Part shown: positions 955 through 41,242 of the stretch, piece after piece | Position numbering within the stretch: position 1 is the stretch's first letter | Layout: the number at the start of each line of letters is the position of its first letter | Source: Acidobacteriota bacterium | GTDB taxonomy: Bacteria; Acidobacteriota; Polarisedimenticolia; J045 | Direction: 5' to 3' | NCBI GenBank assembly: GCA_027021395.1 | Contig: JALUUK010000408.1 | Location: 1 to 41,769, forward strand | Length of the DNA stretch: 41,769 nt | The notes under the pieces: generated by a model | Databases searched by the model: none | Seen by the model: only the letters and a program-made list of their open reading frames with translations | What the model was told of the DNA's origin: nothing | Program-made: the position numbers and the translations under genes

Positions 955-1121
955 ACCTATCGACACGAAACGCGGTAGAGTCGGCGATTGACATGGCCAA
1001 ACACGACAGGCGGTCCACGTGGATGGACCTACTGCGTGCATTCAAGACGGTCGTGCGGCGGTACGGAGCGTCCAGCCAGCGACGCGGAAGAGGACATTGC
1101 ATTCGCAAGCGGCGGAGGTAG
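951..1121 (+). CDS. Small basic protein, 56 aa
   Basis: It starts with ATG in an ATGA overlap with the preceding stop. The product is strongly basic, with an arginine-rich C-terminus, and contains a short helical stretch (WMDLLRAFKTVVRRYG). No family is recognised. It ends three bases before the next start, consistent with an operon of small early genes. Confidence 0.5.
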   Translation: MNLSTRNAVESAIDMAKHDRRSTWMDLLRAFKTVVRRYGASSQRRGRGHCIRKRRR

Positions 1122-1124
1122 GAT

Positions 1125-1352
1125 ATGTGTATGACACCGAGCAAACCCATCATCTTGCGGGTCTCGACGCGGCTGCGCGAGAGGCTGGAGCGCGAGTGCG
1201 ACCGGAGGAAGTGCGAGCTGTCGGAGCTGGTGCGCTCGCTGCTGGCCGACGCCCTCGGCGATCCGTCGCTGGCCGAGATGCGACCGCCCCGGCGTCCGCG
1301 CAAGGACGAGTTGGAGTCGCCGCCCGGCGGCCGAGCCGATCACGACGACTGA
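1125..1352 (+). CDS. Ribbon-helix-helix (Arc/CopG-like) DNA-binding protein
   Basis: This 75-residue protein may instead start at a second ATG at 1131. The pattern IILRVSTRLRERLERECDRR followed by KCELSELVRSLLADAL fits an RHH fold: a short strand with alternating hydrophobic residues, then two helices where a small set of residues (SELVRSLL) packs the dimer. RHH proteins bind palindromic operators as dimers of dimers. A perfect 15-bp palindrome overlapping a promoter lies 59 bases after its stop, so it may control the 1529 gene or itself. The acidic tail (RADHDD) is probably disordered. Confidence 0.6.
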   Translation: MCMTPSKPIILRVSTRLRERLERECDRRKCELSELVRSLLADALGDPSLAEMRPPRRPRKDELESPPGGRADHDD

Positions 1353-1395
1353 CTGCCGATCGCCGGTTTTTTTTCGAAAAAATGTCATACAGATA

Positions 1396-1425
1396 TTGAC
1401 ACCGGCCGATAAGTGTAATACACTT
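1396..1425 (+). promoter_or_regulatory. Sigma70-type promoter with overlapping palindromic operator
   Basis: TTGACA at 1396-1401 is followed after 17 bases by TACACT at 1419-1424, which keeps four of six consensus positions of the -10 box. The palindrome AAGTGTAATACACTT at 1411-1425 (7-bp arms, one central base) covers the -10 box. A repressor bound there would block RNA polymerase. The nearest candidate regulator is the RHH protein just upstream. The promoter would drive the 1529 gene and possibly the operon to 4988. Confidence 0.65.
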
Positions 1426-1485
1426 AGGCCAGAGTGAGAGGCCGGCGCTGGGCCGGCCGAAAAGAAGTGGAGCCGGCGAGGCCGC

Positions 1486-1524
1486 CACCTCCCGGCTCCT
1501 GGGCCCCACCTGATAGGGAGGTGA
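1486..1524 (+). promoter_or_regulatory. Leader able to sequester the ribosome-binding site of the 1529 gene
   Basis: The ribosome-binding site GGGAGGTG (1516-1523) lies five bases before the ATG at 1529. CACCTCCC at 1486-1493 in the same leader is its exact complement and could fold back on it with a 22-base loop. The wider site 1512-1524 is also perfectly complementary to 2042-2054, just after the gene's stop. Two alternative pairing partners suggest translational control or interplay with mRNA decay. Confidence 0.45.
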
Positions 1525-1528
1525 GACC

Positions 1529-2041
1529 ATGAGTTACACTGGCACGACTCTGACGTGTGGTCAAGGGTACGGGGGACGAAAGCCCTGGATCGCTCGGATC
1601 AGCGGCACCGACAGCAAGTACGGATTCGATCGTGAGTTCCTGAGCGTCCGCATGTCCTACAGCCGCTCCGGTAAGACCGGTCGCGGCGAAGCGTACATCA
1701 CCGAGCCCGGCCTCTATCAGTGCCGGGATACCGGCCAGCGGGGCAACGAGGACCGCTTCTATGTCATCCTCCCCGACGCAGATGGCCAGCTTATCGAGCA
1801 TACGATCGACGAGGACGACGCACTGAAACTGGCGGCTCTGCTCGACGAGCATTCGATCGAACAGGCCGCTCGGATTGTCGACGGCGAGCTCCGTATCGGC
1901 CTGGCCGCTGACGATGCTCCGACGCTGGCCGGTTGCATTCAGCAGCTCGAAGCTGCCGTCGGCGAGGCTGGTGGCGCCGATAGTTCTGATCTGGCTCGTA
2001 CCGTCTCTGAGGTGCTCACGCAGCTCAGGCGCCTGGCGTGA
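1529..2041 (+). CDS. Hypothetical protein, 170 aa
   Basis: The ATG at 1529 is preceded by a very strong ribosome-binding site (GGGAGGTG). The N-terminal half is rich in aromatic and glycine residues (GQGYGGRKPWIARISG, FDREFL) and predicted to be mainly beta. The middle holds an acidic helix (IDEDDALKLAALLDE), and the C-terminus is a helical heptad-like stretch (LARTVSEVLTQLRRLA). No family is recognised. It is the first gene behind the 1396 promoter and is flanked by a 13-bp inverted repeat (1512-1524 and 2042-2054), so it looks individually regulated. Confidence 0.75.
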   Translation: MSYTGTTLTCGQGYGGRKPWIARISGTDSKYGFDREFLSVRMSYSRSGKTGRGEAYITEPGLYQCRDTGQRGNEDRFYVILPDADGQLIEHTIDEDDALKLAALLDEHSIEQAARIVDGELRIGLAADDAPTLAGCIQQLEAAVGEAGGADSSDLARTVSEVLTQLRRLA

Positions 2042-2090
2042 TCACCTCCCTATCTCCGCGCGGGCGGGTCGGCGTGTTGTGCCGGCCCGC
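2042..2090 (+). promoter_or_regulatory. 3' element complementary to the upstream ribosome-binding site, plus GC hairpin
   Basis: TCACCTCCCTATC at 2042-2054 is the exact reverse complement of 1512-1524. It is followed by a hairpin with arms 2064-2073 and 2081-2090 (one G-U pair, 7-base loop). There is no T-run, so this is not a classical terminator. It may be a stability or attenuation element that lets transcription continue into the next gene. Confidence 0.45.
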
Positions 2091-2129
2091 CGACGCGCGG
2101 CCCCCTTGGCTCTTGAGAGGAGCGATCCT

Positions 2130-3065
2130 ATGCGACGATTGATCTACTGTGCGAAGTGGAATTCCCTGCGCGGCGACCGGATTCCCGACGCGTCTGCCCC
2201 GTGGATACGAGTCGGCTTACCCGGTGGCGCATGGGCGATCTGCGTCTGTGACGATCCCGAGGCCCCCGTACCGGCCGGCTGGCAGGAAGCCAGCCGAGAC
2301 GATCGGCTGCCCGTCTCCGCTGCGGAGATCGAACAGCAGGTCGAGCAGCTCAAGCGGCTCGGGTACGACGACGCGGCCGACCTGGTCGACGAGGACTACG
2401 TCCGATCCGTCCGGCACGACCCGGCGACCGAGTGGTATGCCTGGGTCGCACCGCTCGATCTGCTGTCGGACATCGAGGAGGCCGGTCGTATCTACGCTCA
2501 CGCGATGCTGTCCGTCGGGTCGCACCTGACGGAGGTCTGTGTGCGACCCCATGAGGACAGACGGCATTGGCTGGCCTGGGTAGGTATCGGCAGCCGCATG
2601 GAGGCGGTGATCGATGCCCGGCGTGCTTCCGCGTCCTTCGAGACGGCAGAAGAGGCCGAAAGCGCCGCCTTGGCGATCCTGCGGCCGCGGCGCAAGGCCT
2701 TCGAACGCGACCTGCGGACGCGGCTGGCCGGCTGGGCGGACGAAGCAATCCAGCGGATTCTGACCGGCCGCGTGCCGGTCGTCGCCGGCGTGTGGCCGTA
2801 TGCCCCGGAGCCGCGCGTGCGCGTGGCCGATCGGCGCGACACCGATCTCTGGTCCGTCACGCCCCGTCCGCCGGCGGACGATCTGCCGGATGTGCCGGCG
2901 ACGGTCGAGCGCGTCGCCTGGCGTGGCCGGCTGTGGACGCGGCCGCAACTGCGCCGGTTCCGGCGCTACTGTCGGATGAAAGGACAGGGCGACACCGAGC
3001 GAGCGCGAGCATTTCGCGAGTCGGCTCAGCAGATTGATCGGTTGTTGGGCGAGGCCGAGTCATGA
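2130..3065 (+). CDS. Hypothetical protein, 311 aa
   Basis: The start at 2130 is chosen because GAGAGGAG lies seven bases upstream; the frame is open further up but without such a site. The first 60 residues include a possible beta-rich unit (LIYCAKWNSL, WAICVCDDPEAPVPAGW), followed by an acidic coiled segment (EIEQQVEQLKRLGYDDAADLVDEDY). The C-terminal 100 residues are arginine-rich with tryptophans (WRGRLWTRPQLRRFRRY), suggesting nucleic-acid contact. I recognise no family. The stop overlaps the next start (ATGA), so the two are probably co-translated. Confidence 0.75.
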   Translation: MRRLIYCAKWNSLRGDRIPDASAPWIRVGLPGGAWAICVCDDPEAPVPAGWQEASRDDRLPVSAAEIEQQVEQLKRLGYDDAADLVDEDYVRSVRHDPATEWYAWVAPLDLLSDIEEAGRIYAHAMLSVGSHLTEVCVRPHEDRRHWLAWVGIGSRMEAVIDARRASASFETAEEAESAALAILRPRRKAFERDLRTRLAGWADEAIQRILTGRVPVVAGVWPYAPEPRVRVADRRDTDLWSVTPRPPADDLPDVPATVERVAWRGRLWTRPQLRRFRRYCRMKGQGDTERARAFRESAQQIDRLLGEAES

Positions 3066-3379
3066 ACGAGATTCGCACTCATTCCGTCTGCCTGCGCATC
3101 GTCCGCCGCTACTTCGCCTGGCTCATGCCGGGCGCGGCGGACGATCTGTCGCAGACGGTGTGGGTCGCGGTGCTGGAGCATCCGGGCGAGCCGCTGCCGG
3201 TGGTGCGCCGGGCGGCGGTGCGTGGGTGCGAGCGGCTCGCCCGCGATCTCGGCTGGCGGCGGACACGGGACTCCCGCCGCCGGCGAGTCTGGATGAGAGA
3301 GTCCCAATGGCTTCGCCGCGGGCCGCGCCGCCAGGGTGCGCCCGTCGGCAATCAGAATAGGAGGAAGCGATGCAGTTGA
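3062..3379 (+). CDS. Small basic protein with sigma-factor-like segment
   Basis: This 105-residue protein starts within the stop of the previous gene. Residues 14-65 (IVRRYFAW, then GAADDLSQTVWVAVLEH, then RRAAVRGCERLARDLGWRR) weakly resemble region 2 of sigma70-family factors, where an A-x-D-L-x-Q-x-V-W-like helix contacts core polymerase. Region 4 is missing and the tail is simply basic. It could be a truncated sigma-like or anti-host-polymerase protein, but the similarity is by eye and weak. It overlaps the next gene by ten bases. Confidence 0.5.
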   Translation: MNEIRTHSVCLRIVRRYFAWLMPGAADDLSQTVWVAVLEHPGEPLPVVRRAAVRGCERLARDLGWRRTRDSRRRRVWMRESQWLRRGPRRQGAPVGNQNRRKRCS

Positions 3380-4176
3380 GTATTCAGGTCTGCCCGGCGC
3401 CGGACGAAGTGCCCGCAGGCGCTGTGATCATCCAACGTCACGACCCCGACGGTGAGCCGATGCCGTGCCAGTTCTGCGACGGGACTGGTCGGCTGGACAA
3501 GTATCGCGGAGAGCCGTGTCGCAAGTGCGCCGGCAGCGGCCATGGCAAGTTCATTTGGGCAGCACGGTATCTCATCCGAACGGCGGGACAGATCGACGTC
3601 GCCGTCGAGTGGCTGGACTCGCTTGACCAATCTCGGCACCGCGTCGATCGCACGATCGGGCTGGCCGAGACTGGTGGCGGATACACCAATACGGGGCACG
3701 CGACGATCGTCTGCGGCCTGCGCGGCGAGCCACTGCCGTCGGTCGGCGGTCGCGCTGTGTGCGGTGGCGAGCACGCCAGGTTTTGGGTGCACGCCGCGAT
3801 GCTCATCGAATACGGCCACCATCGCGGGCAGGGATGCGGCGACGTATCGCTCGTCGCCATCGACCGCCGCGCGCCGCAGATGGTCGGCATCCAGCATGTT
3901 CGGCTCTGGGAGTTCGACGATGATCTTTCGGAGGTCGTCGTCCGCTCGCCGGAGTACCTGCGGCACAACTACGAGCGCGAGACGATTGACCTGGAATTCC
4001 CGCGCGAGGCGGTACAGGCCGCCATGCGCAAATCACGGGACTACCATTGCCGATCGGCCTACTACGCGGCCGGCACTTACGCACATGGGCCGAGCGGCGC
4101 GCTGCGCGGTGCCGGCGCCGCATGCGGCGGGCTCCCCTCGCCGCACAAGGGACCGGGCATCGGATACACGTCGTAG
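3370..4176 (+). CDS. Protein with DnaJ-type CxxCxGxG zinc motif, 268 aa
   Basis: AGGAGG lies five bases before the ATG. Near residues 33-60 it carries CQFCDGTG and CRKCAGSG, two copies of the CxxCxGxG pattern of the DnaJ zinc centre, spaced to bind one zinc ion. There is no J-domain, so it is not a full DnaJ. The rest contains WVHAAMLIEYGHH and acidic and basic stretches with no family I know. Such isolated zinc centres often mediate protein binding. It precedes the serine recombinase by 11 bases and is probably co-transcribed with it. Confidence 0.7.
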   Translation: MQLSIQVCPAPDEVPAGAVIIQRHDPDGEPMPCQFCDGTGRLDKYRGEPCRKCAGSGHGKFIWAARYLIRTAGQIDVAVEWLDSLDQSRHRVDRTIGLAETGGGYTNTGHATIVCGLRGEPLPSVGGRAVCGGEHARFWVHAAMLIEYGHHRGQGCGDVSLVAIDRRAPQMVGIQHVRLWEFDDDLSEVVVRSPEYLRHNYERETIDLEFPREAVQAAMRKSRDYHCRSAYYAAGTYAHGPSGALRGAGAACGGLPSPHKGPGIGYTS

Positions 4177-4187
4177 GACCGAGCTTG

Positions 4188-4988
4188 ATGACCGTCTACG
4201 GATATTGCCGCGTATCCGTAGATCGGACGGAGTCGATCTCGATCAAGACACAGATGCAGCTCATCAGGGAGTACGTTGAGCGGCGGCTGCCGGACGCAGG
4301 CGAACTGCGCTATGTCGTGGATCGCGGCGTGTCGGGCAGCGTGCCGCTCTTTTCGCGTCCGGCCGGACGCCAGCTCCGATCGCTGCAGCGCGGCGACCAC
4401 CTGGTCGTCGCGAAACTGGACCGGGCGTTTCGGTCGGTCCTGGACGGCGCAGCGGTCCTGAGCGAGCTGACGGACGCCGGCGTCGGCGTCCATTGCCTCG
4501 ACGTGCAGGTCGACACGACCACACCCGTCGGCCGCGCGATGCTCCACATGCTGATGACGTTCGCCGAGCTCGAGCGCGAGCGGATCGGTGAGCGGCTGCG
4601 CGCGGCGAACAGACAGCGTCGCCGGCAGGGTCTGCCGTGTGTGCCGACGGAACGCGCGCCGCTCGGCTGGCGAGTGGTCGAGACACGCGACGGACGCCGA
4701 TTTCGCCCGCGACCGGGCGAGCGGAAGAAGTGTCTGACGTTGCTCCGGCTGCGCCGGCGGGGGATGACCTACCGGGAGCTGTGGGAGTATTGCCGGCGGC
4801 GCCGCTGGCGGAACCGGCAGGGGCGGCTCTGGACTCGGGCCCGCATCCGCCGGGCGATAGTCGCGGCCCGCGAGGGATTCCCCCTCGTGAGCGAGGATAG
4901 CCGTCGCTGGGGCGCCGAAAGCGACCGCCCGCGTCACCGGCGACGCCGGCGCGAAAAAATCATTGGCGCTCGACACAGGCAGAGGTAA
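4188..4988 (+). CDS. Serine recombinase (resolvase/invertase family)
   Basis: This 266-residue protein has the complete N-terminal catalytic signature. YGYCRVS holds the nucleophile at Ser10. DRGVSGS lies near residues 45-51, KLDRAFRS at 76-83 provides the conserved Arg/Asp set, and the long helix MTFAELERERIGERL follows. The C-terminal 120 residues are arginine-rich and contain a recombinase-like stretch (LLRLRRRGMTYRELWEY, then RIRRAIVAAREG). It is longer than a minimal resolvase and shorter than large integrases. It sits beside two inverted-repeat structures at 5005-5061. A tyrosine integrase also exists at 36.5 kb, so this enzyme may serve inversion, resolution or host modulation. Confidence 0.9.
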   Translation: MTVYGYCRVSVDRTESISIKTQMQLIREYVERRLPDAGELRYVVDRGVSGSVPLFSRPAGRQLRSLQRGDHLVVAKLDRAFRSVLDGAAVLSELTDAGVGVHCLDVQVDTTTPVGRAMLHMLMTFAELERERIGERLRAANRQRRRQGLPCVPTERAPLGWRVVETRDGRRFRPRPGERKKCLTLLRLRRRGMTYRELWEYCRRRRWRNRQGRLWTRARIRRAIVAAREGFPLVSEDSRRWGAESDRPRHRRRRREKIIGARHRQR

Positions 4989-5004
4989 TATGGAAACAAC
5001 CTTC

Positions 5005-5061
5005 CTCTCAGTACCTGAGCACACTGAGAGACAAGTTCCCACCTCACCGTTCGCGGTGAGG
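5005..5061 (+). repeat. Two stem-loops downstream of the serine recombinase
   Basis: CTCTCAGT (5005-5012) and ACTGAGAG (5023-5030) form a perfect 8-bp inverted repeat. CCTCACCG (5042-5049) and CGGTGAGG (5054-5061) form another 8-bp stem closed by a TTCG loop, an unusually stable RNA tetraloop. They may be RNA-processing or termination aids, or a recombinase-binding site. The position just after the recombinase gene fits either reading. Confidence 0.55.
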
Positions 5062-5070
5062 ACACTGCTG

Positions 5071-5111
5071 GCGGTGTGGGGTGGCCTGCAGCCCCACGCC
5101 GCTGTTTTTTT
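5071..5111 (+). terminator. Rho-independent terminator after the left operon
   Basis: The arms GCGGTGTGGGG (5071-5081) and CCCCACGCCGC (5092-5102) pair over 11 bp with one G-U pair. They are followed within two bases by seven Ts (5105-5111). This is a textbook intrinsic terminator on the + strand and closes the operon ending with the recombinase. Confidence 0.85.
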
Positions 5112-5214
5112 GCCCCCTCCGGATCAGCTTGATGTCCCGGTTCTGAATCCGAAGGCACCCGGCGGCTTGCGCAGCCGAAGGAAGAAAGATTGCGGTCGCT
5201 GAGTCGCCGGTCAT

Positions 5215-19231: not shown

Positions 19232-19521
19232 GGCCTGCTGTGCTTCCTTTGGGCACCCGCCGGCGTGAGCCGGCGGCTGCGGCTTCTCATTGGTGGGCGG
19301 TGCCCACCCTACCCGCTACCCGCCGGCTCACGCCGGCGGTTCGCCCCGGTTGTGGTCGGGTCTCCCGACCCGATCACCATTGCGACCGCAGGTCTCCAGT
19401 GGGTTGTCTGGTTGGGAGACCTTCGGTCCATCGGGTGGGACGGTCTGGAGACCGCCCCACAACTTCGGTCCCTGGGGTGGGCCGGTCCGGAGACCGGCCC
19501 ACAACCGTGGCTGATGCCACG
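19232..19521. repeat. Dense repeat region downstream of the tape measure gene
   Basis: This 290-base gap is almost wholly repetitive: a CCGCCGGCGTGAGCCGGCGG palindrome (about 19257-19277), a GGTGGGCGGTGCCCACC palindrome (19292-19312), the 27-mer at 19318-19344, a GATCACCATTGCGACCG unit (about 19367-19398) and two consecutive GGAGACC-type units (about 19419-19504), the second a diverged copy. No gene is seen. Confidence 0.8.
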
Positions 19522-40268: not shown

Positions 40269-40340
40269 GGTCGGCCCGGGTCGTATCAGGTCGGTCCCGG
40301 TCGAGTCAGGTCGGGCCGGGTCGGATCGGGTCGGAATCGA
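40269..40340 (+). repeat. 20-bp iteron array upstream of the initiator-like gene
   Basis: Three contiguous 20-bp direct repeats (40269-40288, 40289-40308, 40309-40328) follow the pattern GGTCGGnCCnGGTCGnnTCA, with a partial fourth. Two more units occur in inverse orientation at 40771-40810 inside the gene. The regular unit length and the position suggest replication iterons or operator sites. Confidence 0.7.
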
Positions 40341-40357: not shown

Positions 40358-41242
40358 GTGCAACTGGAATTTGACTTCGATCCCAAACTCGAATCAGCAG
40401 CGAAAAACGATGAGCGACTGGAGGCCGTCGGAGTCTCAGCAATGCGGCGAGCCGTGATCTGGCTGTTCCAACTCCACCCGGAAGCCAAGCGCGATGGCAC
40501 GTTGATCCGGCTCGATCTGAGCTTCATAAAGGCATCCCAGTGGCTGCGCAACCAGGCTCGGTGGCGAAACTTGCGCTGTGCCGACACGAACGTGCGACGC
40601 GCCTGCGTGTTCTGGCAGCAATTGCACTGCGTCGCGATCCTGAAGCGACCACGAGTCCTGCTGCTGGATGTGGCGCGACTGAGCGAGTGGCTCTATCGCG
40701 AACAAGAAGCGGTGGAACGAGCCGTCTCGTCGGCTCTCAATTTCGCCGGCGACGGAGCCCCCCCGAAAACAAATCCGACCCGGTCCGACCCGATCCGACC
40801 CGCGTCGACCCTCAGTGAGAGAGTGAGTGAAGAAAAAACTCATTCACTCACTCACTCTGTGGGCGGGGTGGATCGGTCCGATCGGACGGATCAGACGGAT
40901 CGGACAGATCATCCCTCGGCACCGGCCGGGGCGTCGGTGGTGCTGCCTCGGCTGCCGGTGGAGGTGTGGGAGCCCGGCCGAGACGATCGGTCGCTGTATC
41001 GGCTGCTGCGGGCGTATTGGACCGAGCACGGGCCGGCCCTCGAGGCGGCCGGCATCGACGCCGACACGTTCACCGGCGCCGTCCTGGCCGCTCGGGCCCA
41101 GCCACGCACCGACCCGCAGCGTTACGCCGAGCGGTGCCTGGAGCTCGGCCTGACGGAGAACTGGCTCGCCCAGGGGCGCGCCTGGCGCCGCCGGCAGAAG
41201 ATTCTGTTCTCTCGGCCTATCACACATGGAGCGGTGCAATGA
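40358..41242 (+). CDS. Putative replication initiator-like protein, 294 aa
   Basis: The start is the GTG at 40358, nine bases after AAGGAGG. The N-terminal 120 residues look like a winged helix (MRRAVIWLFQLHPEAKRDGT, FIKASQWLRNQARWRNLRCA, NVRRACVFWQQLHCVAIL). The centre is a disordered, DNA-repeat-derived linker (RSDPIRP, SERVSEEKTHSLTHS, DRSDRTDQTDRTD). The C-terminal 110 residues are the conserved block also found truncated at 2-352. An N-terminal winged helix with iterons inside the gene recalls lambda O. The function is inferred from layout. Confidence 0.65.
   Translation: MQLEFDFDPKLESAAKNDERLEAVGVSAMRRAVIWLFQLHPEAKRDGTLIRLDLSFIKASQWLRNQARWRNLRCADTNVRRACVFWQQLHCVAILKRPRVLLLDVARLSEWLYREQEAVERAVSSALNFAGDGAPPKTNPTRSDPIRPASTLSERVSEEKTHSLTHSVGGVDRSDRTDQTDRTDHPSAPAGASVVLPRLPVEVWEPGRDDRSLYRLLRAYWTEHGPALEAAGIDADTFTGAVLAARAQPRTDPQRYAERCLELGLTENWLAQGRAWRRRQKILFSRPITHGAVQ
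40771..40915 (+). repeat. Inverted iterons, hairpin and 9-bp repeats inside the initiator-like gene
   Basis: Two 20-bp iteron units in inverse orientation (40771-40790, 40791-40810) are followed by an 11-bp hairpin (40821-40831 with 40843-40853, A-rich loop). Then come five 9-bp units beginning GATCGG or GATCAG (40871-40915). The last encode the DRT-like tripeptide repeat. The A-rich loop is the only AT-rich bit nearby and could serve as an unwinding element. Confidence 0.65.

Follow-up and report, generated by a model that had tools for sequence, protein, structure and literature searches.

A 13-nt complementarity between the Shine-Dalgarno sequence and the 3′ boundary of the first gene in a predicted phage early operon: a candidate cis-acting translational lock

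The window, i.e., the whole 41,769-nt stretch of DNA analyzed here, is part of a 4.38-Mb assembly of 818 contigs and encodes a tailed phage. The terminase, portal, head protease, major capsid, and tape-measure-like proteins are located on the minus strand, and the phage early genes reside on the plus strand at the left end of the window. One reading frame is open across the junction of the contig ends (1 and 41769), where there is no terminal repeat; this suggests that the phage genome is circular or circularly permuted. Two terminator-like hairpins converge at 5004–5104, at the junction of the early and late operons (5069–5104 on the plus strand and 5031–5004 on the minus strand). The features of the early operon are listed in Table 1.

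Table 1. Features at and around the first gene of the predicted early operon (window coordinates)
Feature	Position	Strand	Basis or remark
75-aa ORF, ribbon-helix-helix-like by eye (KPIILRVSTRLRERLERE...), candidate repressor	1125–1352	+	
Sigma-70-type promoter, TTGACA-17-TACACT	1396–1424	+	10/12 consensus matches
Palindrome TAAGTGTA-A-TACACTTA overlapping the −10 region	1410–1426		Repeat listing and sequence inspection
Leader hairpin, 1486–1493 paired with 1475–1481	1469–1499	+	Folding, −24.4 kcal/mol for 1465–1502
Local SD hairpin	1507–1523	+	Folding, P 0.75–0.96 in most truncated transcripts
5′ arm of the long-range helix	1512–1524	+	Includes SD GGAGGTGA
170-aa ORF, first operon gene, uncharacterized, soluble	1529–2041	+	phrog_26647, E 8.9e-4
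Competing hairpin over the stop codon, outer stem GAGGUG/CACCUC	2009–2048	+	Folding, −21.3 kcal/mol, z −2.7
3′ arm, anti-SD TCACCTCC plus CTATC	2042–2054	+	Directly after TGA
Very strong intergenic hairpin after the 3′ arm	2056–2101	+	−39.6 kcal/mol for 2055–2103
Second operon gene, 311 aa	2130–3065	+	Own SD at ~2114–2120
Serine recombinase, last gene of the predicted operon	4185–4988	+	Pfam Resolvase, E 4.3e-30
Intrinsic terminator, 14-pair stem then T7	5069–5104	+	

The ORF at 1529–2041 is the first gene of the plus-strand operon. The promoter upstream of it is the only promoter-like site in the region 1000–5200 (0.3 expected). Because this promoter and the intrinsic terminator bracket them, the five genes between 1529 and 4988 are probably transcribed as one message of ~3.7 kb, with predicted ends at ~1430 and 5105. 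The hairpin between genes 1 and 2 is not an intrinsic terminator, as it lacks a U-tract; it is possibly a processing or stability element. Further downstream, a 268-aa ORF (3370–4176) gave a weak match to the DnaJ-type CxxCxGxG zinc motif, under the curated cut-off. At the operon promoter, a palindrome, TAAGTGTAATACACTTA (1410–1426), lies on the −10 region, beside the 75-aa ribbon-helix-helix-like ORF (1125–1352). The palindrome and this ORF likely constitute a repressor-operator pair. The ORF has no Pfam or PHROG match, and a scan of the viral contigs for the operator palindrome returned 16 matches, which is about chance level by rough estimate.

The product of the first gene has a maximum 19-aa hydropathy of 0.61 and a GRAVY of −0.39. 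A type I toxin message was considered and rejected, given that the product is a soluble protein of 170 aa and no short hydrophobic peptide. The structure model of this protein has a mean pLDDT of 53, too low for a fold search. Searches of viral_contigs, genome_contigs, phages, plasmids, 396 phylum genomes, and smaller sets yielded no close homologue; viral_contigs was queried with the protein itself, its distant alignment, the candidate repressor, and two neighbours from the operon. Apart from a Chlorobiaceae phage protein, whose copies occur in a viral contig and in a Chlorobiaceae MAG (~29% identity over 85 residues), no relatives were seen. Relatives of the capsid protein (45–62%) were found, and the 170-aa gene was absent from all 30 records that were searched, many of which are fragments.

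Two complementary segments flank the coding region. The 5′ arm, GATAGGGAGGTGA (1512–1524, plus strand), covers the Shine-Dalgarno (SD) sequence of the gene, and the first base of the 3′ arm, TCACCTCCCTATC (2042–2054), adjoins the TGA stop codon (2039–2041). The first-pass annotation had claimed that the two arms are exactly complementary, and this was borne out, with 13 of 13 bases paired across a spacing of 517 nt. It was also right that a third segment, 1486–1493 (CACCTCCC), is complementary to the SD core (1516–1523). No 16S gene was found in the 4.38-Mb assembly, and the usual anti-SD was therefore assumed for the host. The pairing runs 5 nt past the generic anti-SD into leader-specific sequence, and the anti-SD octamer has a single plus-strand occurrence in the window, which is the 3′ arm.

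Perfect terminal inverted repeats flanking a single gene, with a serine recombinase encoded 2.1 kb downstream, could also be the ends of a movable or invertible cassette at the DNA level, perhaps served by that recombinase. However, no further copy of the 13-mer exists in the whole window within 2 mismatches, and no further exact copy exists in the assembly; the outer flanks have no visible target-site duplication; the repeat coincides exactly with the SD; and inspection of the inverted strand revealed no start codon after the SD copy. We consider a DNA-level element very improbable, and a transposon or invertible cassette was rejected on the uniqueness of the 13-mer to its two sites and the unduplicated flanks. 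A minus-strand gene using the second SD copy was rejected as well, because no start codon stands at a suitable spacing.

The 3′ arm might instead act in trans as a general anti-SD, e.g., as a 3′-UTR-derived RNA targeting other messages, in which case its fit to its own SD would be incidental. The arm includes the generic anti-SD TCACCTCC and forms 8 or 9 pairs with 12 of 512 other SD regions, and trans action of the icaR UCCCC motif was left possible by the authors of that study (PMC3868564). Its best partner by far, however, is its own leader (13 pairs vs. at most 9), there is no promoter-like site near 2042, and no Rfam match was found in the window. This explanation is accordingly improbable, albeit less so than the cassette.

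As a bare inverted repeat, the pair of arms is unremarkable: the window contains 8 exact inverted repeats of at least 13 nt within 600 nt, compared to a shuffle mean of 1.15 (maximum 4). Elsewhere in the window, a 19-nt perfect inverted repeat, CGGGTCGGATCGGGTCGGA, occurs at 40317–40335 and 40784–40802 (448 nt apart), where the right-end gene region begins, and a 20-nt perfect inverted repeat with a short spacer, CCGCCGGCGTGAGCCGGCGG (19257–19339), forms a strong hairpin between late genes. What is rare is the position of the arms relative to the gene. The longest match between the SD region and the gene's own 3′ end is 13 nt here, vs. no more than 7 in the other 35 called genes of the window, no more than 7 in 67 host genes, and no more than 8 in 410 other phage genes. 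Mismatched gene pairs reached a maximum of 10 (n = 10,506), and so did a larger survey of 1451 genes drawn from phages, the host, and two related genomes. An exact 13-nt match over the whole SD, against this maximum of 10 in the control genes, argues for a functional pairing. In the larger survey, the matched distribution follows the mismatched-pair distribution, indicating that SD/3′-end pairing is no general habit of genes, which counts against it. So does the distant Chlorobiaceae homologue, whose longest pairing between SD region and 3′ end is 5 nt, although its distance makes this absence little informative. Extrapolation of the tail put the chance at ~3e-6 to 1e-5 for each gene and 1e-4 to 4e-4 for each window. 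Because the arrangement was picked post hoc, the rarity of the match is suggestive and does not prove function.

The predicted message was folded from its start at ~1430, and several 3′ truncations were compared. In these predictions, the SD is half-hidden in a local 5-bp hairpin, CACCU-GAUAGGG-AGGUG, in which 1507–1511 pair with 1519–1523 and the GAUAGGG loop stays open. The probability of this hairpin drops to only 0.10 in the transcript ending at 2000, in which other pairings dominate. The third segment, 1486–1493, had been proposed as an arm that lets the message switch between two pairings. This proposal was rejected on the folding predictions: the segment pairs with 1475–1481 at a probability of ~1, its pairing with the SD has a probability of 0.00 at every transcript length folded, and the actual local competitor is 1507–1511.

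Both the minimum-energy prediction and the ensemble have the two arms paired in a helix, which would bury the SD. The probability of this helix is 0.71 in the transcript ending at 2050, 0.99 at 2054, and 1.00 at 2130, and the predicted openness of the SD falls from ~0.38 to 0.02 when the 3′ arm appears. The ensemble probability is 0.99 for the gene-1 transcript and likewise 0.99 when gene 2 is added. Synonymous codon shuffling of the coding region left the helix in place in 25 of 25 cases, indicating that the arms, rather than the intervening gene, determine it. Folding thus upheld one part of the earlier idea, a helix over the start region, and did not support the switch. Nor was a circularized message supported: in the predicted five-gene transcript, in which the 3′ arm is intergenic, the arms flank gene 1 alone and would not join the message ends. 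Circularization is therefore the wrong picture and, given the downstream terminator (5069–5104), was rejected as unlikely.

The same 3′ arm contributes the distal strand of the stop-codon hairpin, in which 2009–2014 pair with 2043–2048. When the long-range pairs were forbidden, the ensemble lost 8.2 kcal/mol for the gene-1 transcript and 3.9 kcal/mol with gene 2 included. The net gain of the long-range helix is only −3.9 to −8.2 kcal/mol because the stop-codon hairpin (−21.3 kcal/mol) competes for the 3′ arm, and this competition is a further point against a lock. The computed energies modestly favour it, with kinetics and ribosomes outside the calculation; on a translated message, ribosomes would mostly separate the two arms, which also argues against it.

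The proximal strand of the stop-codon hairpin (2009–2014, in the coding region) reads GAGGTG, as does the SD core; the hairpin by itself would thus give the 3′ arm partial complementarity to the SD. The match could therefore be a coincidence between a strong SD (GGAGGTGA) and a stop-codon hairpin whose CACCTC strand faces GAGGTG, the other 7 matched bases being due to chance. The predicted stability of the hairpin (z −2.7) is consistent with this explanation, as are the 13 GAGGTG and 12 CACCTC words on the plus strand of the window, its many inverted repeats of at least 13 nt, and the genes in general, which show no SD/3′-end pairing above chance. However, the extra 7 bases have a chance of ~1e-4 (0.27^7), and a match of 13 was neither reached nor approached in the 1451 control genes. 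We consider coincidence a serious contender, nearly even with a functional lock.

The leading explanation, at a probability of about 0.45, is that the first gene of the phage early operon carries a cis-acting long-range SD/anti-SD lock. The analysis shows the matching arms, how rare such a match is, the structures predicted for the RNA, and the signals of the operon, whereas transcript ends, toehold kinetics, ribosome effects, and any regulation are inferred. In such a model, while the gene is being transcribed, the SD would be half-hidden in the weak 5-bp hairpin and its GAUAGGG loop would be open, so that translation could start. Once 2042–2054 is made and free of ribosomes, its CCUAUC would pair with the open loop as a toehold, and the helix would then zip to 13 bp, displacing the two hairpins, at the SD and at the stop codon, and closing the SD. 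Both toeholds, 1512–1518 in the GAUAGGG loop and 2049–2054 (CCUAUC), are predicted to be single-stranded before the helix forms and would offer a plausible route for the hairpin exchange. A ribosome terminating at the TGA codon should cover the 3′ arm, and closure would therefore be expected only on poorly translated or late messages. The lock would damp gene 1 and spare the downstream genes, because these have their own SDs. A more specific version, which we regard as unlikely, is that the lock senses translation: the anti-SD directly after the stop codon would be held open by terminating ribosomes, and low ribosome traffic would let the GAUAGG/CCUAUC toehold exchange the two metastable hairpins into the 13-bp lock, silencing gene 1 only.

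The first-pass annotation described 5′–3′ closure as rarely reported in phage genes; this is fair for phage genes, but the principle has been published for bacterial mRNAs (PMC3868564, PMC6733600), and these experimentally established analogues, the icaR 3′-UTR/SD lock and the sequential hairpins of aapA3, speak for a lock here. In the icaR mRNA of Staphylococcus aureus, a 3′-UTR UCCCCUG motif pairs over ~7 nt with the SD region UAGGGGG; the pairing blocks translation and creates an RNase III substrate, its mutation raises expression, and a compensatory mutation restores complex formation (PMC3868564). Both icaR and the gene described here combine a downstream anti-SD with the SD of the same non-toxin message. 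The icaR arms (~57–63 and 894–900) span a longer distance and the second lies in the message's own long 3′ UTR (PMC3868564), whereas the arms described here, known from sequence, would form 13 perfect pairs, with the 3′ arm directly after the stop codon of a probably polycistronic message. In the aapA3 mRNA of Helicobacter pylori, successive metastable SD hairpins are followed by a 5′–3′ lock, as established experimentally; aapA3 and aapA1 belong to type I toxin-antitoxin systems with toxic peptides, an antisense RNA, and activation by 3′ trimming (PMC6733600). In contrast, the gene studied here encodes a soluble protein of 170 aa, and a sigma-70 consensus scan of 1000–5200 revealed no promoter-like site on the minus strand. 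The full-length hok mRNA of the hok/Sok system of plasmid R1 is translationally inert, its 3′ segment folding back on the 5′ region. A similar fold-back is predicted here, but no toxin, antisense RNA, or overlapping leader ORF was identified. The hok system has been described as similar to aapA3 (PMC6733600). If functional, the lock would by analogy work like the icaR, hok, and aapA mRNAs. If real, it would extend this type of 5′–3′ closure to a non-toxin gene in the operon of a double-stranded DNA phage, and would show how expression of one gene in a polycistronic message can be lowered by the 3′ boundary of that gene.
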